50,779 nucleotides of DNA from Candidatus Lokiarchaeota archaeon (GTDB taxonomy: Archaea > Asgardarchaeota > Thorarchaeia > Thorarchaeales > Thorarchaeaceae). The position numbers and the translations under genes are program-made. Under the pieces are notes generated by a model. It saw only the letters and a program-made list of their open reading frames with translations. It did not search any database and was not told where the DNA came from. The stretch lies in contig WJIL01000060.1 of NCBI GenBank assembly GCA_014730275.1, forward strand, positions 1 to 50,779. The letters run 5' to 3'. Below are positions 26,744 to 44,932 of the stretch, one piece after another. The number at the start of each line of letters is the position of its first letter. Within the stretch, counting starts at the first letter, position 1.

Positions 26744-27832
26744 CTATCCATATAGATCCTTGAGCGCCTTTTCTAGGCGATTAAGCCCTTCAATGAGCTC
26801 TTCTTTTTCGCCGCCGAATCCTATTCTCAGATGTTTATCCATTTCAAGGCCATAGCCTGGTACCGTAAATGTGCGGTACTTCTTGACCAGTAGTTGACAT
26901 AGCTTCTTGGTTGATTCCCCATTGGCAAGCCAAGGTGCACAGACCATGCCGCCTTCTGGTTCAACCCATTCAAGCCAGCTCTGCTCTTCCATCCAATCCT
27001 TGAGTATGGCATAATTTTGAGAAAGCATGGTTTCCATTTCACCAAGTATGGCATCTCTTTGCCTCAATACTTCAATTGCAATAGCTTCACCAAGAGCAGA
27101 ATTGCATATGGTAATTTGTTCCCGCACTGTGCGTATTGCTTGAATGACTGGTTCTTCCGCAATCGCCCATCCTATGCGAATGCCTGGTAGACCGTAGACT
27201 TTGGACATACTCGTTATGCTGATGGCGGAAAGGCTTAGTGTAGCGGCCTGTCGTGGTGGTTCTCTGAACGTGAGATCTCTATAGGTTTCGTCTACCATTA
27301 GATGCGCATCCATGTCTTCTGCTATTTCTATTGCTCTCTTGATTTGGCTTTCATCAATCATCGAACCAGTGGGGTTATTCGGATGTGTAAGAGAAATGAG
27401 GGTTGTTTCAGGCTTGACGATTTGGTCAAGCTCATCCAAATCTGGCTTGAAGTTGTTTTCCCGTCTCAGATGAAATAGAGTCAAGTCGCGTTCCAGCGAT
27501 CTGGGAACTTGATAGAGCGAGGGATAAGTAGGATGTTCAACGACAACATGATCATTCTTACCCACGAGGTGCGATATAATCGAGAAATTCGCTTCGCTGG
27601 CACCCGTCGTTACCGCTACATTGTCCATTGTGATTCCTTCATACTGATTCGCTATTAATTGGCGGAGCTCAGGGCATCCAAGGTGATATCCATAACGGAG
27701 CTCGACATTCTCTAAGTCAATATCCATTTCTTCGAGGGTTAGAAATTTCATACCGCTCTCGCCAATGTCATAGTCGACCTCATACTGCCATTTATCAAAC
27801 CAGTATTCGAGTGGCATGCGTTCAAAAACCAT
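26744..27832 (-). CDS. PLP-dependent class I/II aminotransferase
   Basis: The 362 residues have the fold-type I aminotransferase motifs. VTTGASEANFSI binds the phosphate end of PLP, LTHPNNPTGS contains the conserved Asn, MVDETYRDL contains the Asp that contacts the pyridine N, and SMSKVYGLPGIRIGW contains the Schiff-base Lys. The C-terminal Arg is probably in HLRIGFGGE. Members transfer amino groups between amino acids and 2-oxo acids (aspartate, alanine or similar). The substrate cannot be fixed by eye. It stands just upstream of, and divergent from, the hydrogenase operon across a 205-bp region full of regulatory signals. Confidence 0.9.
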   Translation of the reverse strand: MVFERMPLEYWFDKWQYEVDYDIGESGMKFLTLEEMDIDLENVELRYGYHLGCPELRQLIANQYEGITMDNVAVTTGASEANFSIISHLVGKNDHVVVEHPTYPSLYQVPRSLERDLTLFHLRRENNFKPDLDELDQIVKPETTLISLTHPNNPTGSMIDESQIKRAIEIAEDMDAHLMVDETYRDLTFREPPRQAATLSLSAISITSMSKVYGLPGIRIGWAIAEEPVIQAIRTVREQITICNSALGEAIAIEVLRQRDAILGEMETMLSQNYAILKDWMEEQSWLEWVEPEGGMVCAPWLANGESTKKLCQLLVKKYRTFTVPGYGLEMDKHLRIGFGGEKEELIEGLNRLEKALKDLYG

Positions 27833-27950
27833 AGAGTCTCACAGGAAAACCGGGTGCCTCTCTGTACGATAAAAGGCTTTTTAGAACGGCACATTCTGAA
27901 GGATGTTATTTTAGCAAAGATTCACCGATGAATAGTTTAGGATTCAAACG

Positions 27951-27980
27951 ATTTTTCGATATTTTTCGACGCTTTTCGTA
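27951..27980. promoter_or_regulatory. Three phased 10-bp repeats upstream of the hydrogenase operon
   Basis: ATTTTTCGAT, ATTTTTCGAC and GCTTTTCGTA follow each other without gaps. The core TTTTCG therefore recurs exactly every 10 bp, close to one helical turn. They lie just upstream of a TATA-like stretch (about 27988-27996). This is a plausible site for cooperative binding on one face of DNA, or intrinsic A-tract bending. The binding factor is unknown. Confidence 0.5.
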
Positions 27981-28007
27981 TGATTAACCTTAATACAGGA
28001 ATTGGGA

Positions 28008-28024
28008 GGTTACACATTGTAACC
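28008..28024. promoter_or_regulatory. Palindromic operator candidate for the hydrogenase operon
   Basis: GGTTACACATTGTAACC is a perfect 7-bp inverted repeat around 3 bp, ending 13 bp before the hydB ATG at 28038. If CTTAATAC just upstream acts as the TATA box, the palindrome covers the start site, which suits a repressor. The same site could act on the mRNA leader as a small hairpin. The regulator is not identified. Confidence 0.55.
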
Positions 28025-28037
28025 ATAAACCACTGGA

Positions 28038-29111
28038 ATGGTGATTATGCAAAACTATGTCATAAAGAAAGAGGACTTGAATAAGCTTGTTGAGCGGGCT
28101 TTAGATGATTATGATGTCTATGCCCCCGTGCAAAAAAAGAGCATTCATGTCTACGATCAGATTTCGGATCCTGCCTCAATGGATTTGAATTATGGTCAAA
28201 CGATGACTTCTGCTAAGAAGTTGTTCAATCCACCTGTTGAGAATATGATGACCTTTGATTTTGATAAAAAGGAAATCAAGGATAGACTTGAGGACACTAT
28301 ACCCGAAACTCCGTCGCTGATTGTGGGATTGCACGCCTGCGATATTAACGGCCTGCTCTTTTTGGATCGGGTCTATGGCGGAGAATACGATGACCTCTAC
28401 TACCAGAAGAGACGAGAAAAAACCACCATCATCGGTTTGAATTGCCTTGAATCGTGTGAGAGTGGGTTCTGCCGCTCAGTTAACACGCATATAGTGCTTG
28501 AAGGTTATGATCTCTTCCTGACTCCTATTGAGGATGAGCGGTACTATGTCAATGTCGGGTCACCAAAGGGTGATCGACTCATCACTCTTGCTCCTGATCT
28601 TTTCGAGGAGGCAACCGAAGATGATGTTGATGCCTTTCGTAAATCGCTTCAAAAGAAGCATGAATCATTGCCAGTGGAATTCCATCTTGATAACTTGACG
28701 GAAACGCTTGATATGGCATGGGATGATCCAATCTGGGAAGAGATTGGGGAAGACTGCATGAACTGCGGTTCATGCGCTTTGGTCTGTCCTACTTGTTACT
28801 GCTTCGACGTTGTAGACGAGGTAGGGCTGGATTTGAAAGAAAGCACTCGCAAGCGAAAATGGGATACTTGTTTGTATTATGACTTTGCTCTAGTGGCTGG
28901 CAATCACAACTTCAGAGAAGAGCCAGAAGCACGACTCAAGTATCGTTTCTATCACAAGATGAGAGGAGCAGTGCACGACCAAGGTATCATCGCCTGTACT
29001 GGTTGTGGAAGATGCATAGATGCATGCCCTGCTGGTATCAGCTTCTTAGATGTGCTAGCTCAATTACAGAAAAACTGGGCAAGTGCACCTACTATAGAGG
29101 GAGGGAACTAG
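28038..29111 (+). CDS. hydB: [NiFe] hydrogenase (group 3b type) beta subunit, iron-sulfur protein
   Basis: The 357 residues match the HydB/AsrA family that relays electrons between the hydrogenase module and the flavin subunit. Two ferredoxin sites are in the C-terminal half: CMNCGSCALVCP (about residues 238-249) and CTGCGRCIDACP (about 318-329). Other cysteines near residues 138-148 (NCLESCESGFC) are also conserved in the family. The ATG at 28038 and an in-frame ATG at 28047 (MQNYVIKKEDL) are both possible; the second matches the family start. It is the first gene of a four-gene operon and abuts the next gene. Expression is probably controlled by the palindrome and repeats just upstream. Confidence 0.93.
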   Translation: MVIMQNYVIKKEDLNKLVERALDDYDVYAPVQKKSIHVYDQISDPASMDLNYGQTMTSAKKLFNPPVENMMTFDFDKKEIKDRLEDTIPETPSLIVGLHACDINGLLFLDRVYGGEYDDLYYQKRREKTTIIGLNCLESCESGFCRSVNTHIVLEGYDLFLTPIEDERYYVNVGSPKGDRLITLAPDLFEEATEDDVDAFRKSLQKKHESLPVEFHLDNLTETLDMAWDDPIWEEIGEDCMNCGSCALVCPTCYCFDVVDEVGLDLKESTRKRKWDTCLYYDFALVAGNHNFREEPEARLKYRFYHKMRGAVHDQGIIACTGCGRCIDACPAGISFLDVLAQLQKNWASAPTIEGGN

Positions 29112-29960
29112 ATGCAAGTAGAAGTTAAGCGTGAAAATGAATACATTCCTAATCTAGCCGTTTTGAAAAACAGAACAGACATGACAGAGTTGGAGACGCT
29201 TTTCGAGTTCGAATTCAAGGATAAGGACCTCCAAGATCATTTCTCTTACAAACCTGGTCAATTCATTCAGTTGAGTATGTTTGGTATTGGAGAAGCTCCT
29301 TTTTCAATCAGTTCCACACCAACAAGACCCGGTACCATTGAGCTAGGTATTCGGCGAGCTGGCGATGTAACTGAAGCTATTCACAGGTTAGAACCAGGTG
29401 ATGTTGTCGGTCTTCGCGGACCTTACGGAAACGGCTTTCCCCTCGAAAAGATGAAAGGCAAAGACATACTCATTGTCGCCGGTGGGATTGGCCTCGTTCC
29501 ACTTCGCTCAGTCATCAACTATATCATTGATGAACGTGATGACTTTGGGCACATGACACTGTTTTACGGAGCTTGTCTTCCGGAAGAACGGATATTCGTG
29601 GATGAACTTGAGAATGATTGGCCATCTGCACCTGATGTTGATGTATTGCAGACTGTTGATGAATGTCATGACACATGGATGGGCAATGTTGGTGTCGTAA
29701 CTACGCTGTTTGACAAGTACGAAGTTGATTCGGAAAATACTGTCGCTCTAATCTGCGGTCCTCCTGTCATGTATCGCTTCGTTGTAAAAGAGCTCCTGGA
29801 CCTAGACTTCCGGAGAGACGAGATATACATGTCATTGGAGCGCAGAATGAAGTGCGGTGTAGGCAAATGTGCACACTGCCAAGTAGGCCATAAGCTAGTA
29901 TGCAAAGACGGCCCCGTATTTACCTACTTCGAAGTGCAGCGACTACAGGAGGCAATCTAG
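29112..29960 (+). CDS. hydG: [NiFe] hydrogenase gamma subunit, FAD/NAD(P)-binding
   Basis: This 282-residue ferredoxin-NADP reductase-like subunit has an FAD domain with APFSISSTPT and LRGPYGNGFP. A nucleotide domain follows with VAGGIGLVPLRSV and LICGPPVMYRFV. The C-terminal cysteine cluster in MKCGVGKCAHCQVGHKLVCKDGP binds a [2Fe-2S] centre, as in HydG/AsrB and dihydroorotate dehydrogenase electron-transfer subunits. It exchanges electrons with NAD(P)H. The ATG follows the hydB stop directly, with GGAGGG in the end of hydB as ribosome-binding site, so translation is coupled. The gene symbol follows the Pyrococcus sulfhydrogenase naming and is unrelated to the HydG maturase of [FeFe] hydrogenases. 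Confidence 0.93.
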   Translation: MQVEVKRENEYIPNLAVLKNRTDMTELETLFEFEFKDKDLQDHFSYKPGQFIQLSMFGIGEAPFSISSTPTRPGTIELGIRRAGDVTEAIHRLEPGDVVGLRGPYGNGFPLEKMKGKDILIVAGGIGLVPLRSVINYIIDERDDFGHMTLFYGACLPEERIFVDELENDWPSAPDVDVLQTVDECHDTWMGNVGVVTTLFDKYEVDSENTVALICGPPVMYRFVVKELLDLDFRRDEIYMSLERRMKCGVGKCAHCQVGHKLVCKDGPVFTYFEVQRLQEAI

Positions 29961-29972
29961 GAGGTTAACAAG

Positions 29973-30746
29973 ATGAGTGATAATGGTAAACCGAAAGTTG
30001 GCATATTTGGATTGACCGGATGTGCTGGATGCCAGCTGAACATACTGAATATAGAAGATCACCTGCTAGATATTCTTGGTCTCGTTGACATTACGACCTG
30101 GGTCATGGCTAAGCAAGAGAATTCCGATGGCCCTTGGGACATTGCGTTTGTTGAAGGATCAGTTGCAAAGGAATCAGAAGTTGAGCGGGTCAAGAAGATC
30201 CGTGAAAAGTCTGATGTGCTTATTGCCATCGGTGCATGTGCCACCCATGGTGGTCTCCCCGCAATTCGTAACATGCGGGATATTGAAGAAATGAAAGAAA
30301 CGGTGTACGGAGAACAAACGTCGCATTTGGATGTAATTCCAATCAAACCAGTCTCGCATTATGTGGACGTTGATGCAGAATTACCAGGCTGTCCAATGGA
30401 TAAGATGGAATTTGTCCGCGCAGTGATGGCACTAGCTATGAAGAAGACACCACAGGTACCCAACTATTCAGTATGCTATGAGTGTCGGGTGAATGAAAAC
30501 CCATGTCTTCTCGATGAAGGGAAATTCTGTATGGGGCCCGTTACCCAGGCAGGTTGTGATTCGTTGTGCCCCTCCTATGGTGCTGCCTGTGAAGGCTGTA
30601 GAGGTCCCATTGCTCAGGTGAATTGGGGTGCAGAGGTAAAAATCCTCAAAGAAATGGGTGCAACAGCCGATCAGATACGTAGGAAGTTCCTCAAGTATTG
30701 CCCGTCAACAGCTGATATGGAAGACTTCCAGGAGTTGACTTTGTGA
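29973..30746 (+). CDS. hydD: [NiFe] hydrogenase delta (small) subunit
   Basis: This 257-residue small subunit contains the proximal-cluster motif GLTGCAGCQLNILN at the N-terminus, then IGACATHGGLPAIRN and LPGCPMDKMEF. The C-terminal part (CYECRVNENPCLL through AACEGCRGP) carries many further cysteines for additional clusters, as in group 3 enzymes. There is no twin-arginine signal, so the enzyme is cytoplasmic. A GGAGG site lies 8 bases before the ATG, in a 12-bp gap after hydG. The stop overlaps the start of the large-subunit gene, so both halves of the catalytic dimer are made together. Confidence 0.95.
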   Translation: MSDNGKPKVGIFGLTGCAGCQLNILNIEDHLLDILGLVDITTWVMAKQENSDGPWDIAFVEGSVAKESEVERVKKIREKSDVLIAIGACATHGGLPAIRNMRDIEEMKETVYGEQTSHLDVIPIKPVSHYVDVDAELPGCPMDKMEFVRAVMALAMKKTPQVPNYSVCYECRVNENPCLLDEGKFCMGPVTQAGCDSLCPSYGAACEGCRGPIAQVNWGAEVKILKEMGATADQIRRKFLKYCPSTADMEDFQELTL

Positions 30747-32026
30747 TGACAACCGAAAATATTGATATCAAGCATATTGCCCGAGTTGAAGGGCATGGCT
30801 CATTGTATGTGACTACTAAAGACAAGGAACTCGTCGATGTTAAAATGTCAGTCGATGAAGGAGCCAGGCTTTTTGAAGCCTTTCTGAAAGGCCGAGAATT
30901 CACAGAAGTACCCGAAATAGCCTGTAGGATTTGTGCAATTTGTAGCGCATCACACAGAGTAGTTTCAACCAAAGCCGTAGAAAAGGCGATAGGCATCGAG
31001 GTGAACGAAGATGTTGTAGATCTTCGACGGCTTCTGGTCTGGGGTGAGTATATTGAAAGCCACATTTTACACGCACTGTACTTGGCTTTGCCAGACTACA
31101 TCGGTCATGAAAGCGTGATTTCTGCAGCTGGCGAATATCCTGATGTTGTCAAGATTGCGCTCAAGCTGAAGAAGCTAGGAAACGACCTTCAAATTCTTGC
31201 GGGCGGCCGTGAGGTTCATCAAGTAACTCCTATGGTTGGAGGTTTCAGTAGCTACCCAACAAAGGACCGTTTGAGAGAATTGAAGCAAGAGATTCTTGAC
31301 GCACGCGAGGATCTGCAAACTTGTGTCGACCTCTGGGCTACACTAGAAGAGCCTGAGTTCGAACGAGAAACAGACTATCTCGCAATCAGAAGAGATGATG
31401 AATACGCTCTGGTCGATGGTGACTTGGCAACTCTAGATGGACTTCGAGCACCTGTCGAGGACTACAAGAAACACATCCAAGAGCGTGTACCCGACTACAG
31501 CTATGCAAAAGCTGGTGTTCGCAACAGCCATGGTTTCTTCGTCGGTGCTTTAGCTAGACTGAACATAAATGAGGAACATTTGTTGCCCTTTGCGAAGTCT
31601 GCTTTGGAGACCTTGGAAATTGACCTACCGAGCTACAACACGTTTCTGAACAACGCGGCTCAACTGGTGGAAACTGCACAAGTATTCGAAATGGCCGAGA
31701 ATACCATCGACAAGCTTCTTGAAAGCGATATGGAATGGTACGAACCTGAAGTAGAACCCAAAGCAGGAACTGGAACTCATATCACCGAGGCACCGAGAGG
31801 TACTTTGGTTCATTCCTATGAGTTCGATGAGGATGGTCTTTTGACTTACGCTGATATCATCACGCCAACTGCTATGAACTACACCAATCTAGAGGAAGAC
31901 GTGCGGGAGCTCTACCCCTCTATCAACAATCAGGACCGTTCTGGTATAGAATTCATGCTGAACCGCCTCATTCGGGCATATGATCCCTGCATCAGTTGCT
32001 CTTGCCATCTCTCAACAGTAGACTAG
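30743..32026 (+). CDS. hydA: [NiFe] hydrogenase alpha (large) subunit
   Basis: The 427-residue catalytic subunit has both nickel-binding motifs: RICAICSASH (Cys64, Cys67) and DPCISCSCH near the C-terminus (Cys416, Cys419). Only five residues (LSTVD) follow the final His, so the peptide removed at maturation would be very short. The proximal EGHGSLYV segment is typical. GTG at 30743 overlaps the hydD stop and has GGAG at good spacing; ATG at 30746 is an alternative. The four subunits together match the soluble, NAD(P)-linked group 3b bidirectional hydrogenases, which evolve or take up H2 and can reduce sulfur in some archaea. No maturation protease or Hyp gene is in the window. Confidence 0.95.
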   Translation: MMTTENIDIKHIARVEGHGSLYVTTKDKELVDVKMSVDEGARLFEAFLKGREFTEVPEIACRICAICSASHRVVSTKAVEKAIGIEVNEDVVDLRRLLVWGEYIESHILHALYLALPDYIGHESVISAAGEYPDVVKIALKLKKLGNDLQILAGGREVHQVTPMVGGFSSYPTKDRLRELKQEILDAREDLQTCVDLWATLEEPEFERETDYLAIRRDDEYALVDGDLATLDGLRAPVEDYKKHIQERVPDYSYAKAGVRNSHGFFVGALARLNINEEHLLPFAKSALETLEIDLPSYNTFLNNAAQLVETAQVFEMAENTIDKLLESDMEWYEPEVEPKAGTGTHITEAPRGTLVHSYEFDEDGLLTYADIITPTAMNYTNLEEDVRELYPSINNQDRSGIEFMLNRLIRAYDPCISCSCHLSTVD

Positions 32027-32131
32027 CTAGAGGGCACTCGTAAACTGCAGTAAGTGCGGTGACATTCATAAGTGAATAGTGTATTCCATGACACAGGAAC
32101 TAGGCCTACTGTTTGGCAAGAGTGCAAAGTG

Positions 32132-32518
32132 ATGAAAATGGTAAAGCGCGTCATGGTAGTAGATGATGAACCCGCCGTGCCCTCAGTTGTGGAAACGTAT
32201 CTACGAACCTATCTTGATGATTTTCAGTTGATTCCGGCTACAGATGGACATGAAGCCATTAGAGCAACTGAAGATCTCCTGGATGAAGGCAATTCACCAG
32301 ATGTTGTGCTTATGGATTTGAAAATGCATCCTATGAACGGTATTGAGTGTACCAAGGCCCTTGTGGAAAAAGGAATTGAGGATATCTATATCCTTACCGC
32401 ATACGTTGACTCCGATATGATTTCTGAGGCTTTGGATGCAGGCGCAAAGGGCATCATGAACAAGGCTGATGGCTACCGTGATATCGCACGCAGAGCCGCT
32501 GATATCGTCCGTGGTTAG
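32132..32518 (+). CDS. Stand-alone response regulator receiver domain
   Basis: The open frame reaches back to 32072, but ATG at 32132 (MKMVKRVMVVDDEPAV) fits the receiver fold, giving 128 residues. The acidic pair is Asp11 and Asp12, the phospho-acceptor is Asp62 in VVLMDLKM, the switch Thr is Thr89 in ILTAY and the conserved Lys is Lys111 in IMNKADG. No output domain follows. It is therefore a CheY-like single-domain regulator that must act by protein contact. It lies 105 bp downstream of hydA on the same strand and may be cotranscribed. No histidine kinase is in the window. Confidence 0.9.
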   Translation: MKMVKRVMVVDDEPAVPSVVETYLRTYLDDFQLIPATDGHEAIRATEDLLDEGNSPDVVLMDLKMHPMNGIECTKALVEKGIEDIYILTAYVDSDMISEALDAGAKGIMNKADGYRDIARRAADIVRG

Positions 32519-39104: not shown

Positions 39105-40058
39105 CTATGGCGTCATTCTAATGTTCAGCTCATCAACGAGTTCCTTGTACCTATTCCGAACAGTCACTTCAGTCACGCCAGCAGCAGAGGCGATATCTCG
39201 TTGCGTTACACGGTTATCGGTGACGATTGAAGCGATGTAGATCGCTGCAGCCGCCAACCCTCGTGGGTCACGTCCTGTGATAAGCCGCTTCTTCTGTTGT
39301 GCTGCGTTAAGGATTTCGAGAACCTTCTCCTGCACATGTCCGGGTAAGTCAAGCTCGGTGATAAACCGCGGGACATAATTAGAGGGCGTGGATATGGGCA
39401 TCTTGAGTTTGAGTTTCCTAACCAATAGACGATAGTGCTTTCCGATTTTCTTCTTGCTGACACGTGAATGGTCCGAAATCTCCTCAAGCGACCGTGGTGC
39501 CTCTCTCAATCTACAGGCTGCGTAGATTGCAGCTCCAACCATGGCGTCGATAGACCTGCTCCTCACGAGCCGTTTCACGATAAGCTTCCTGTACAGGAGC
39601 GCCGCAAGCTCTTTGATGCTTTTCTTGAGACCAAGCTGTGAAGTTAGCCTATCAAGCTCGGTCATAGCCTGGGCAAGGTTTCGGTCCACTGAGCTGTGTA
39701 CTCTGGTCCGGATCTGCCATTTCCTGAGCCTGTAGATCTGCGCTCGTTTCTTGGCTGAGAACCGTTTTCCTGAGGAATCACGGTCGCGCCAGTCAATCAT
39801 CGTGCTGAGCCCTTTGTCGTGTATTGTGTAGTTCGTGGGAGCTCCAGCCCGTGCTCTGGCGTTCCGTTCTTCTGTAGTGAAAGCTCGCCAGTCCGGGCCC
39901 TTGTCAATTCTATGATCGCTGACTACAAGGCCGCATGTTGCGCAAATACGTTCACCTTTCTCTAAGTCCTGCACCACATCATGTCCTCCACACTCTGGAC
40001 AGGTGAATTCAGCTGACCTCTTTCTTCTCTCTTCTGCTGATTTGGTATTGGATGCCAT
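39105..40058 (-). CDS. tfb: Transcription initiation factor TFB (TFIIB-like), copy 1
   Basis: The 317 residues have an N-terminal zinc ribbon (FTCPECGGHDVV, then ICATCGLVV), a B-finger/linker (KGPDWRAFTTEERNARARAGAP) and two cyclin folds (about residues 100-210 and 215-312). The second fold ends with the DNA-reading helix-turn-helix VTQRDIASAAGVTEVTVRNRYKEL. TFB bridges TBP bound to the TATA box and RNA polymerase. It is a close paralogue of copy 2 about 2 kb away. Two TFB genes let many archaea change promoter choice with conditions. The start ATG directly follows AGGAG, an unusual zero spacing. Confidence 0.95.
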   Translation of the reverse strand: MASNTKSAEERRKRSAEFTCPECGGHDVVQDLEKGERICATCGLVVSDHRIDKGPDWRAFTTEERNARARAGAPTNYTIHDKGLSTMIDWRDRDSSGKRFSAKKRAQIYRLRKWQIRTRVHSSVDRNLAQAMTELDRLTSQLGLKKSIKELAALLYRKLIVKRLVRSRSIDAMVGAAIYAACRLREAPRSLEEISDHSRVSKKKIGKHYRLLVRKLKLKMPISTPSNYVPRFITELDLPGHVQEKVLEILNAAQQKKRLITGRDPRGLAAAAIYIASIVTDNRVTQRDIASAAGVTEVTVRNRYKELVDELNIRMTP

Positions 40059-41020: not shown

Positions 41021-41968
41021 TTACGGGTTTAGAGTTATGTTGAGCTTATCTACGAGTTCCTTGTATCTATTTCGAACAGTGACTTCTGTTACTCCGGCCG
41101 CCGCCGCGATTTCTCGTTGGGTAGCTTTGTCGCCCACGATAATAGAAGCTATGTAAATTGCTGCAGCAGCCAAACCTCTGGGATCTTTTCCTGTTACAAG
41201 ACTGTGTTTTTTCTTCGCGGCTTCTAGAATTTCCATGACCTTCTCATGAACCGTGCCTGGGAGATTCAACTCGGCTATCAATCGCGGAACATAATTCATC
41301 GGGTCACTTATGGGCATACGCAAGTTAAGCTTCTCGACTAAGAGACGATAATGCCGTCCGATTTTCTTCCTACTGATTCGTGATTCTCTTGCAATTTCAT
41401 CCAGCGAGCGTGGAGCTTCTCTGAGTCTACACGCGGCATAGGCGGCAGCTGCTACCATGGCCTCAATGGACCTGCTTCTGATTAGTTTCTGTATAATTAG
41501 CTTCCTGTAAAGGACGGCGGCTAGTTCCTTTATACCACTGCTAAGCTTTAGCTGTGATGCAAGTCTATCAAGCTCGCTCATTGCTTGAGCTAGGTTTCGT
41601 TCTACGGAGCTGTGTACCCGTGTGCGAATCTGCCATCTTCGAAGCCTGTAAATTTCCGAGCGTCTCTTTGCTGAGAAGCCTTTCCCCTGCGCATCACGGT
41701 TTCTCCAGTCAATTAACGTGGAAAGACCCTTGTCATGCTTGGTATAATCAGCTGGTGCCCCTGCCCGTGCGCGGCTCTCTCTTTCTTCAGAAGTAAATGC
41801 TCGCCAATCAGGGCCTCTATCCATGTGATGCTCACTTATTACAAGGCCACAAGATGCGCAGATTTTTTCGCCTTTCTGGATGTCCTCTACCAGCTCATGC
41901 CCGCCGCACTCAGGACATGTGAACTCCTCTTCGGATTTCTTCTTGTCTTTTTTCTTACTTTGGCCCAT
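41021..41968 (-). CDS. tfb: Transcription initiation factor TFB (TFIIB-like), copy 2
   Basis: The frame is open back to 42040, but ATG at 41968 (MGQSKKKDKKKSEEEFTCPECGG) aligns with the start of copy 1 and gives 315 residues. The zinc ribbon (CPECGG, ICASCG), B-finger region DRGPDWRAFTSEERESRARAGAP and two cyclin folds are complete. The second fold ends ATQREIAAAAGVTEVTVRNRYKELVDKL. It differs from copy 1 mainly in the N-terminal 20 residues and scattered surface positions, so both are probably active. It ends 11 bp from the Nudix gene stop (convergent) and lies downstream of the feo operon on the same strand. Confidence 0.95.
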   Translation of the reverse strand: MGQSKKKDKKKSEEEFTCPECGGHELVEDIQKGEKICASCGLVISEHHMDRGPDWRAFTSEERESRARAGAPADYTKHDKGLSTLIDWRNRDAQGKGFSAKRRSEIYRLRRWQIRTRVHSSVERNLAQAMSELDRLASQLKLSSGIKELAAVLYRKLIIQKLIRSRSIEAMVAAAAYAACRLREAPRSLDEIARESRISRKKIGRHYRLLVEKLNLRMPISDPMNYVPRLIAELNLPGTVHEKVMEILEAAKKKHSLVTGKDPRGLAAAAIYIASIIVGDKATQREIAAAAGVTEVTVRNRYKELVDKLNITLNP

Positions 41969-42075
41969 TTGGATAGGCTCCCATTGTGCCTTGTATATTA
42001 TGTGATTGGTTTCTGATAAATCTGTAAGGAAGCTATCCACTAGTACCTCAATAAAAATCTACCACATTTGCTGAT

Positions 42076-42342
42076 CTAGGATTTGACGAAATGCTTTCCG
42101 CCTTCTGTGACATAGTATTCCTCGGTGACCAGCTTTTTCTGCTGACAACTCTCAGCCATAGGACATGTGGGACAAGTAACGTCCGGCTCACAATTGCATT
42201 CGCCAAATCTGAGGTATCCATTCTCCAAGAGGATACTAAGCATATCCTCCAGTGTGGACATCTGAACTCCCAGTTCCTTGGCAATCTCTTTTTTGTGAGC
42301 AACTTTCTCTTCAAGAATGAGACGCAATATACGTTTGAGCAA
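42076..42342 (-). CDS. FeoC-like winged-helix protein with cysteine cluster
   Basis: The 88 residues start with a TTG; GGAAGTGA upstream overlaps the end of the preceding gene. The N-terminal winged helix (ILRLILEEKVAHKKEIAKEL, then LEDMLSILLENGYLR) is followed by Cys49, 51, 57, 60 and 66 in GECNCEPDVTCPTCPMAESC. This matches FeoC-like regulators, in which a small HTH with four or more cysteines may bind an iron-sulfur cluster and sense iron or oxygen. It is the last gene of the feo operon, directly after the small membrane protein. Binding to DNA or to FeoB are both possible roles. Confidence 0.75.
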   Translation of the reverse strand: MLKRILRLILEEKVAHKKEIAKELGVQMSTLEDMLSILLENGYLRFGECNCEPDVTCPTCPMAESCQQKKLVTEEYYVTEGGKHFVKS

Positions 42343-42783
42343 CTATTTCACTTCCTTTGGCTTCTTCATAACCTGTTTCGAGAACGGATACATCGCAACA
42401 AGCAAAGGAACTACAGCTGGAAAAATCCAAATGGCCTGAGTGAAGTCAGAAGCGATTTGCCAGTTGGTCCAACCCTCAAGTGCAAGTAACCACCCTAGTG
42501 CATTTGAAAATAGAATAACGATTTGTAGTCCTGCAATTACCCCGGCCAGCAATATTCCGACCATGAGAAACGGGATGGCATCAGAAACTGATTTTCTCAA
42601 CTCCTTTGCACCTTCAATGAAAACGATGCCAACAATCAATATCATAATCCCTGTGAGCACATCCGCGGAGAAGGGGGCAACAGATACCACCCCAAAGAAG
42701 GTGAGTAGTGTGAGTATCCCCGAGACTGTGTAAACAACTGCTGAAATCAAACCCAGCAACATGAAAGTGGTTCTTTGTTCCAT
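42343..42783 (-). CDS. Small membrane protein in the feo operon
   Basis: ATG at 42783 (MEQRTTFMLLGLISAVVYTV) is preceded by GGAGTGAT and gives 146 residues; ATG at 42792 would be three residues longer. Four membrane helices are visible, and the end is charged (MKKPKEVK). No motif is recognised. It starts 14 bp after the feoB gate gene and abuts the FeoC-like gene, so it is probably a partner in ferrous iron uptake. I know of no standard Feo subunit of this shape, so its job is open. Confidence 0.65.
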   Translation of the reverse strand: MEQRTTFMLLGLISAVVYTVSGILTLLTFFGVVSVAPFSADVLTGIMILIVGIVFIEGAKELRKSVSDAIPFLMVGILLAGVIAGLQIVILFSNALGWLLALEGWTNWQIASDFTQAIWIFPAVVPLLVAMYPFSKQVMKKPKEVK

Positions 42784-42797
42784 GATTCTCATCACTC

Positions 42798-44117
42798 CTA
42801 GCTGAAAAGGAAACCTCCTACGAGTACCGTAAGTAACGCCAAGCCGTAGGCGAGCAAGAATTGATACGCGACCGAGAATGCGGCCCATTTCGTTGATCCT
42901 GTTTCTTTCTTGATTGCACCAATAGTGGCTATGCAGGGTGTATAAAGCAGTACAAAAATCATGAAGGCAACTGCTGATACTGGACTTAGTACTGATGTCA
43001 AGGCAGCACCGATTCCCCCTTGGCCTTGCACTGCAAAAATCACACCAAGGAAACCTACAACCACTTCTTTTGCAAGAATTCCAAACACCAGCGCTGCAAC
43101 GATTTCCCAGGTGAAGCCTAGTGGTCTGAATACTGGTTCAAGGATCTTCCCTAATATACTGACGAATGATTCCGTCGCTGGAACTCCAAATCCTGCTGGA
43201 CCAAAAGATGATGCGAACCATAGAATGATAGACCCCAAAAGAAGATACGTGCCTGCTTTCTTCAGGAACAGCACTGTTCTTTCCCAAGTCTGTATGGATG
43301 TATCTCGCAAGGTTGGCATCTGATACATTGGAAGCTCCATCAGGAGTGGTGAGGCGCGCTGTTGGAAAAGGGTCCTCTTGAAAATGAGTGCCATTATAAC
43401 CGCCATAACAATGCCAAGCATGTACATTGAAAACACGACCGTGCCTGAAATCATTGGAAAGAAGACACCTGCCACAAGCACATAAACGGGCAATCTCGCT
43501 GCGCATGACATAAGCGGGCTTATGAGGATGGTAGTGAATCTGTTTGATTTACCCTCAATTGTTCGTGATGCCATGACTGCAGGTACAGTGCAGCCGAAAC
43601 CCAGTAGTAACGGTATGAACGACTTTCCGTGAAGCCCCATTTTTACCATGAGTCTATCCATTACGAATGCTGCACGTGCTAGGTATCCACTATTCTCTAA
43701 AAGTGCGATTGCAAAATACATGAAAAGAATGGGGGGCAGAAAGACAAGGATGAAACCGACTCCCCCAATAATGCCGTCCGTAACAAGTGATGCAACCCAT
43801 GGTATTGGTATTTGGCTGGTTAAACCACCGAGGTATGTGAATCCAGCTTCTATCATTGCCATGAAAACTTCAGACACCTGAAACGTAAACTCGAACATCG
43901 CCCACATAATTAGCAAGAATATGGGTAGACCAAGATACTTGTGCAAGAAGACCTCATCGAGCATGTCGCTAAGCAGCCACTTCTTCTGTCCTGGTTTGTA
44001 GACATCGTCCAGAATTTCGGAAATCAGCTCATACCGTTCATCAGCAAGAATTACCCTCGGATTGATTGCATCCCTGTATTCATTGTCCATATCTTGTTGA
44101 TTCGCGGACTCTGTCAT
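42798..44117 (-). CDS. feoB: FeoB membrane (gate) domain as a separate protein
   Basis: The 439 residues correspond to the membrane half of FeoB. A soluble N-terminus of about 70 residues is followed by the core with two Gate repeats. The key segments LLLGFGCTVPAVMASRT and LISPLMSCAARLPVYVLV hold the conserved Cys residues that line the Fe(II) path. At least eight membrane helices are present. Start and stop overlap the G-protein gene by ATGA, so the two halves are made in equal amounts. FeoB is usually one polypeptide of about 650-800 residues; here the G domain and channel are clearly separate genes and neither is truncated. Confidence 0.92.
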   Translation of the reverse strand: MTESANQQDMDNEYRDAINPRVILADERYELISEILDDVYKPGQKKWLLSDMLDEVFLHKYLGLPIFLLIMWAMFEFTFQVSEVFMAMIEAGFTYLGGLTSQIPIPWVASLVTDGIIGGVGFILVFLPPILFMYFAIALLENSGYLARAAFVMDRLMVKMGLHGKSFIPLLLGFGCTVPAVMASRTIEGKSNRFTTILISPLMSCAARLPVYVLVAGVFFPMISGTVVFSMYMLGIVMAVIMALIFKRTLFQQRASPLLMELPMYQMPTLRDTSIQTWERTVLFLKKAGTYLLLGSIILWFASSFGPAGFGVPATESFVSILGKILEPVFRPLGFTWEIVAALVFGILAKEVVVGFLGVIFAVQGQGGIGAALTSVLSPVSAVAFMIFVLLYTPCIATIGAIKKETGSTKWAAFSVAYQFLLAYGLALLTVLVGGFLFS

Positions 44118-44932
44118 GGCGTTATCTCCAGAATCTTCCTTTTCAATTCGGGATCCTCAATCATCCTCAGTATTTCTTCATCACGTTCGAAAAGGCGCAA
44201 AGCAAGCCATCGTGGCGGAAATCGCTCTCGTAAATCTTGCTTATCCTCTATCAACATCACTATCTTCTTGAGCTTCCTCTCCACTTTAGTGCTATATTTG
44301 ACCGCAGGCGGCGACAGTCGTTCGTACTCTCCATGATGGTGATGTCGTGGATGGTAGTGCAAATGGTCATCACGGTCAATGTCCCCGGGTAGATGCTCTT
44401 TCGCATTTCCTTCATGCGCTGTTGGCTCCGCTTGAAGATCTTCAGGAACCGCCTCTAGAATAGCGTCTTTGAGGTCTTCCATTCCTACCTTTTTGGTTGC
44501 AATTGTGGTGACAACTGGAGATCCCAACCGCTCAGACAGCTTCTCGATGTCTATTTTGTCTCCTCTAGATTCCACAACATCACTCATATTCAGCACAACT
44601 ACCAGATTGAGCTGCAATTCTATGAGTAGCAACGTCAGATACAGGTTCCGTTCAAGCTGGGCTGCGTTGACTATGTCAACCACTACTTCAGGTCTATAAT
44701 CAATGAGATATTGACGAGCAACTTTCTCATCCTCAGACCGAGCACTCAAGCTGTACACCCCTGGCAAATCCACAATCTTGAACTCGTAGCCCTTGTGTTC
44801 GAAGTATCCTTCCTTTCGCTCGACTGTTTTGCCCGGCCAGTTTCCAGTATGCTGTTTGCTCCCTGTTAGGTTGTTAAATATGACGCTTTTTCCTACATTG
44901 GGATTGCCTATGAGAGCTACTCGGATTGGCAC
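44114..44932 (-). CDS. feoB: FeoB G-protein domain with His-rich insertion
   Basis: The 272 residues begin at GTG 44932 with GAGGTG five bases upstream. G motifs are GNPNVGKS (9-16), DLPG (55-58) and NMSD (115-118), with the switch region HTGNWPGKT. A linker at about residues 165-205 holds a His-rich patch, His190, 192, 194 and 197-200, which can bind metal and is not a usual FeoB feature. The C-terminal helices (KVERKLKKIVMLIE) match the FeoB GDI-like region. GTP binding should gate Fe(II) uptake through the partner encoded by the overlapping next gene. No feoA gene is seen. Confidence 0.93.
   Translation of the reverse strand: MPIRVALIGNPNVGKSVIFNNLTGSKQHTGNWPGKTVERKEGYFEHKGYEFKIVDLPGVYSLSARSEDEKVARQYLIDYRPEVVVDIVNAAQLERNLYLTLLLIELQLNLVVVLNMSDVVESRGDKIDIEKLSERLGSPVVTTIATKKVGMEDLKDAILEAVPEDLQAEPTAHEGNAKEHLPGDIDRDDHLHYHPRHHHHGEYERLSPPAVKYSTKVERKLKKIVMLIEDKQDLRERFPPRWLALRLFERDEEILRMIEDPELKRKILEITP

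Follow-up and report, generated by a model that had tools for sequence, protein, structure and literature searches.

A palindromic putative operator at a Thorarchaeota hydrogenase promoter recurs at redox-gene promoters of other Thorarchaeota

The window analysed here, a stretch of 50,779 nucleotides, is contig C60 of a 3.64-Mb Thorarchaeota (Asgard) genome (G000). It contains a hydrogenase operon (28047-32026) with the hydB-hydG-hydD-hydA layout of the group-3b, NAD(P)-linked NiFe enzymes (sulfhydrogenase type; Table 1). An earlier note on this DNA had recognised a four-gene hydrogenase operon, and this is borne out: the genes for the beta (Fe-S), gamma (FAD/NAD), delta (small) and alpha (large) subunits follow one another in this order, which is the arrangement expected of group 3b. 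The order is identical to that of Pyrococcus sulfhydrogenase 1, a group-3b enzyme that also has four subunits. The best family and structure matches of the operon proteins are sulfhydrogenase subunits (Pfam, NCBIfam and PDB), the solved chains nearest to HydA being sulfhydrogenase 1 alpha (9nez_D) and 5yxy_A, but the scores against the Thermococcales group-3b models are below the equivalog cut-offs.

Table 1. Genes and promoter features at the hydrogenase locus (positions in the window)
Feature	Position	Strand	Remark
Aminotransferase gene	26744..27832	-	Divergent from hydB; shares the intergenic region
Three TTTTCG units, 10-bp spacing	27951..27980	+	Starts 27953, 27963 and 27973; directly upstream of TATA
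CTTAATA, probable TATA element (hydrogenase promoter)	27989..27995	+	Ortholog alignment; elements upstream of tRNA genes
Putative palindromic operator GGTTACA-CAT-TGTAACC = GGTTACACATTGTAACC	28008..28024	.	Recurs at redox promoters of other Thorarchaeota
hydB, beta (Fe-S) subunit, group-3b hydrogenase	28047..29111	+	Conserved start ATG 28047
hydG, gamma (FAD/NAD(P)) subunit	29112..29960	+	
hydD, delta (NiFe small) subunit	29973..30746	+	
hydA, alpha (NiFe large) subunit	30743..32026	+	

The operon is separated from the aminotransferase gene by a divergent intergenic region of 205 nt (27833-28037). The aminotransferase, at 176 nt from the palindrome described below, could be a second gene under the putative operator. 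A single-domain response regulator is encoded immediately 3' of hydA (32072-32518, + strand). Further along the window there are two complete TFIIB (TFB) genes separated by about 1 kb (39105-40058 and 41021-42040, - strand) and a FeoB-type iron transporter split over two ORFs (44114-44932 and 42798-44117, - strand), the second of which alone was scanned. A small HTH-like ORF beside FeoB (42076-42342, - strand, within 42076-44932) has no NCBIfam match.

The start codon of hydB conserved in the ortholog alignment is ATG 28047, not ATG 28038. For the core promoter, our comparison was based on the regions upstream of tRNA genes in the window genome; motif discovery with 224 upstream regions of this genome did not yield a clean core-promoter motif. 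The earlier note had pointed to a 'TATA-like box', and the probable element does resemble those that precede tRNA genes of the same genome (for example, ATCTTAATAACC). In addition, a TTAT element conserved in the nine orthologous hydB promoters aligns with CCTTAATAC in the window. Since the centre of an archaeal TATA element lies about 27 nt upstream of the transcription start (PMC5316973), transcription of the hydrogenase operon should begin at about 28019. This is inside the palindrome, as the earlier note had supposed, and an alternative TATA element, TATGATTAA (27979-27987), would likewise place the start there. The palindrome begins 13 nt after the TATA element and covers approximately positions -11 to +6 relative to the predicted start. 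The hydB promoters of other genera (L007-L015) have in common, about 60 nt before hydB, the sequence ATTCCTCAA-N3-TTAT around the likely TATA element. The upstream half, ATTCCTCAA, is missing from the window genus. This composite was also tried as a regulon motif and gave only scattered single matches.

The palindrome has perfect arms of 7 nt and a spacer of 3 nt, exactly as first noticed, with the core GTTACA-N3-TGTAAC at 28009-28023. By itself it is unremarkable, since some 7-bp palindrome with a spacer of 0-8 nt occurs in 10% of dinucleotide shuffles of the 205-nt region and in 9.8% of the 224 upstream regions of the window genome (with a spacer of exactly 3 nt, the figure for the shuffles is 1.65%).

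Copies elsewhere in Thorarchaeota are more informative. The exact form GGTTACA-N3-TGTAACC is present in six of 47 genomes of the family; 180 genomes from the rest of the phylum (Asgard) have no copy. Outside the window genus there are four exact copies, all of them intergenic and 18-22 nt before a start codon. A search of the 47 Thorarchaeota genomes that allowed a single mismatch to the 17-mer gave 31 sites in genera other than that of the window, and 27 of these were intergenic. The reversed pattern, a palindrome of equal composition, served as a control: only one of its 22 examined sites was intergenic and 21 were inside genes (Fisher p=8e-10). The bias is retained after collapsing orthologous promoters into groups made by hand (16/20 against 1/12, p=1.3e-4). 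Because total counts are not clearly above those of the control (33 against 25 with one mismatch, 33 against 20 for the exact 15-mer), the evidence is positional: the signal lies in where the copies are placed, not in their number.

The genes downstream of these copies are mostly redox genes and can be arranged in two classes. Class A includes a 122-aa membrane protein, DUF4386 proteins and zinc-type quinone oxidoreductases. Here the geometry is fixed in eight of nine cases, the site following a CTTATNAT TATA element by about 32-35 nt and preceding the start codon by about 18-22 nt; the ninth (L240) deviates. Class B includes MvhD (FlpD), after which come a molybdopterin formate-dehydrogenase-like subunit and an FrhB/FdhB subunit; HdrA, which is divergent from an aldehyde ferredoxin oxidoreductase; HdrC-HdrB; an HdrD-like protein; TusA; DUF1858; and Mrp/MinD-type ATPases (for these last, the name comes from the sequence alone). 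There are non-redox targets as well (fructose bisphosphatase, membrane proteins and proteins of unknown function). The distance from site to start codon varies from one target group to the next, and three MvhD promoters have the site upstream of the likely TATA element. The two classes may be sites of different proteins. In one genome (G006, L257:1397-1523) the HdrC-HdrB promoter includes three tandem 41-bp repeats, each containing the palindrome.

The MvhD-FdhA promoters were gathered with an MvhD protein search and not with the motif. Of the nine closest orthologs in other genera, seven have the core GTTACA-N3-TGTAAC with 0-1 mismatches in 12 positions; three of these loci (L314, L320 and L322) were known from the motif search and four were new. 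More distant MvhD copies (n=19) have at least three mismatches to the core. The expected rate of a core match is about 0.0007 per promoter, and each of 143 shuffled half-site palindromes was found in only 0-1 of the nine MvhD-FdhA promoters. A binomial value for this comparison takes no account of how the promoters are related and is not a true probability. A second conserved element, GAATNNTGATTCAT, together with TTTCCGNAGTAAATG, also recurs in MvhD-FdhA promoters, upstream of MvhD in L314-L319. These elements are probably the site of another regulator.

The hydrogenase site itself has no mismatch to the core or to the 17-mer; it is intergenic and lies close to where the core promoter of this redox operon is predicted. 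A large regulon is not obvious in the window genome, since a whole-genome search allowing two mismatches returned nine sites against 13 for the control. One of the nine, a degenerate intergenic copy (L287:1501-1517, that is, G000:C62:26403-26419; two mismatches over 14 positions), is found 25 nt upstream of a gene for a LarA-type lactate racemase. In the 447 kb of the window genome covered, one of the upstream matches that come closest, apart from the hydrogenase site, is at C9:86939 (two mismatches), before the ortholog of a membrane gene found beside TusA, and another is at C103:87032 (three mismatches), before the ortholog of a further target. The site is absent from the promoter of the window genome's own MvhD-FdhA ortholog and from that of its second hydrogenase.

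The palindrome is probably an operator through which a regulator specific to Thorarchaeota acts on redox genes, with the hydrogenase as a genus-level member of the set. In more specific terms, we think it likely that a homodimeric regulator acts through this site at redox and energy promoters of Thorarchaeota and represses the hydrogenase in the window genus. A homodimeric helix-turn-helix protein would be expected because a perfect two-fold site of 17 bp is reused at many promoters. We infer that a single regulator would serve MvhD-FdhA (formate dehydrogenase), HdrABC-MvhD, aldehyde ferredoxin oxidoreductase, TusA, the quinone-oxidoreductase/membrane-protein operons and, in one genus, the hydrogenase. 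Archaeal repressors are known to block basal factors or polymerase at the core promoter (review, PMC12993045). As the site overlaps the predicted start, repression by this mechanism would be the likeliest effect at the hydrogenase promoter: a homodimer bound at about -11 to +6 would block RNA polymerase, and a redox or metabolite signal that abolishes binding would turn the operon on. The targets suggest that the signal may be redox state or an electron carrier. At the three MvhD promoters with the site upstream of the likely TATA element, activation is as likely as repression.

The family has ten further orthologs of hydB. One, in a sister species of the same genus (G001), is 99% identical; the other nine belong to other genera and are 55-63% identical. 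Alignment of the upstream regions shows both the palindrome and the TTTTCG triplet in the window genome and G001 only. The earlier note had proposed to look for both features in relatives that keep the operon; beyond the genus they fail this comparison, being absent from all nine orthologous promoters. Identity with G001 carries little weight, since hydB is unusually undiverged there: third positions differ by 1.7% in hydB, 12% in hydG and 17% in the aminotransferase gene. We therefore discarded it as support. The low-divergence block extends over approximately 27891-29100 relative to the sister-species locus (L006), so that the promoter and hydB are far closer than the flanking genes. This suggests a possible recent exchange of the block between the two sister species. 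Because the site is absent from the nine hydB orthologs, from the genome's own MvhD-FdhA promoter and from its second hydrogenase promoter, the putative control of hydrogenase through the palindrome is confined to one genus.

This distribution also gives substance to an alternative that we consider unlikely, namely that the palindrome is a genuine operator at other thorarchaeal promoters and that its presence at the hydrogenase is due to chance or is neutral, with no regulatory role. The nine promoters without it, the frequency of 7-bp palindromes in intergenic regions (about 10%) and the confounding of the G001 comparison by the low-divergence block are all compatible with such an origin. However, the full 14-base consensus is matched exactly, for which the chance is of the order of 1e-6 per 205-nt region (a rough estimate, and not a clean test, the motif having been derived from the same site). 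The match lies at the predicted start site, and by its function the hydrogenase operon falls into one class with the other targets.

SurR, a regulator of the Thermococcales, has sites at the promoter of the group 3b sulfhydrogenase and of other electron-flow operons (PMC12162507). The systems are alike in that SurR is an ArsR-like redox regulator of hydrogenase and sulfur genes, and the hydrogenase concerned is of the same kind as that of the window. The sites are different: SurR uses GTTn3AAC(n5GTT), whereas GTTACA-N3-TGTAAC was found, among the Asgard genomes searched, only in Thorarchaeota. It had been noted earlier that GTT-N3-AAC does not occur in the palindrome; it is missing from the whole intergenic region too (27833-28046, both strands). 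GTAACN4GTTAC, which we take to be an HcpR-like motif, is likewise absent from the hydrogenase promoter. RosR of Halobacterium salinarum, an archaeal oxidative-stress regulator, also has a palindromic putative site, but this is centred on TCG-N-CGA (PMC3443676) and is unlike GTTACA-N3-TGTAAC.

A more specific version of the operator reading would name the regulator as a PadR-family repressor. These proteins (for example, PadR and LmrR) are dimeric winged-helix repressors that act on inverted repeats, and in one genome (G028) a PadR gene (L346:2071-2613, Pfam E=1.4e-12) is divergent from a palindrome promoter and starts about 180 nt from the palindrome. The class A targets (DUF4386 proteins and quinone oxidoreductases) also resemble detoxification operons. 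We nevertheless hold this identification to be quite improbable. The PadR consensus ATGT-N8-10-ACAT (PMC3506622) differs from the palindrome and is absent from 27833-28046. Moreover, a PadR gene is seen beside the site in that genome only: the gene families common to at least three site neighbourhoods are those of target enzymes and membrane proteins, plus a few that are unrelated, with neither PadR nor any other regulator family among them at the other fetched loci.

The earlier note had read the promoter as an activator-plus-repressor layout, with an activator on the three phased TTTTCG repeats and a repressor on the palindrome. The palindrome survives from this proposal as a putative regulator site at the start, since the motif recurs at Thorarchaeota redox promoters; the repeats have not fared as well. 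The TTTTCG core does recur at exact 10-bp intervals, as had been described, in helical phase and immediately upstream of the TATA element (Tandem Repeats Finder reports the first two units as ATTTTTCGAT x1.9, 27951-27969). A 6-mer present three times at a period of 9-12 was not obtained in 2000 shuffles of the intergenic region and, among the 224 upstream regions, is found only in that of the hydrogenase. The 3.64-Mb genome has no second copy of the exact triple, and matches with three mismatches are not above control. The triplet is absent from the nine orthologous promoters of other genera, and TTTTCG flanks five of 25 other palindrome copies against 13% of background regions, so that an association with the palindrome is not clear. 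An activator site is one possible reading of the repeats, but DNA bending by phased T-tracts or a neutral duplication explains them as well, and one or two tandem duplications of a T-rich 10-mer could yield such units. The triplet is better regarded as a separate, genus-specific feature, unsupported as an activator site, and the combined layout seems very unlikely to us.

Least probable of all is an action of the palindrome in RNA, as a 5'-leader hairpin controlling translation or stability: the 17-mer can fold into a 7-bp stem with a 3-nt loop and class A sites lie between the likely transcription start and the start codon, but a start at about 28019 would leave the upstream arm out of the hydrogenase mRNA, the folding z-score is just -1.0, the site precedes the likely TATA element in three MvhD-FdhA promoters and the arms are constant across genes instead of covarying (a weak argument, since the searches favour constancy).

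The reading of the palindrome as an operator can be extended, tentatively and with rather less confidence, to the physiology of the lineage. A Thorarchaeota-specific redox regulator, with a motif unrelated to that of SurR, might coordinate hydrogen, formate and heterodisulfide electron flow through GTTACA-N3-TGTAAC. Its target sets would turn over fast, the hydrogenase having been recruited in one genus and formate dehydrogenase in others. We found no description of a regulon or an operator for any Asgard archaeon in the open-access literature. If the extended reading is true, it would possibly be the first outline of a redox regulon for an Asgard lineage. The defined 17-bp site provides a concrete bait for finding the regulator. 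The site is tied by its footprint to enzymes that these archaea are thought to use in exchanging hydrogen and formate with partner organisms, and would allow a test of whether the genes for Asgard syntrophy share one control.
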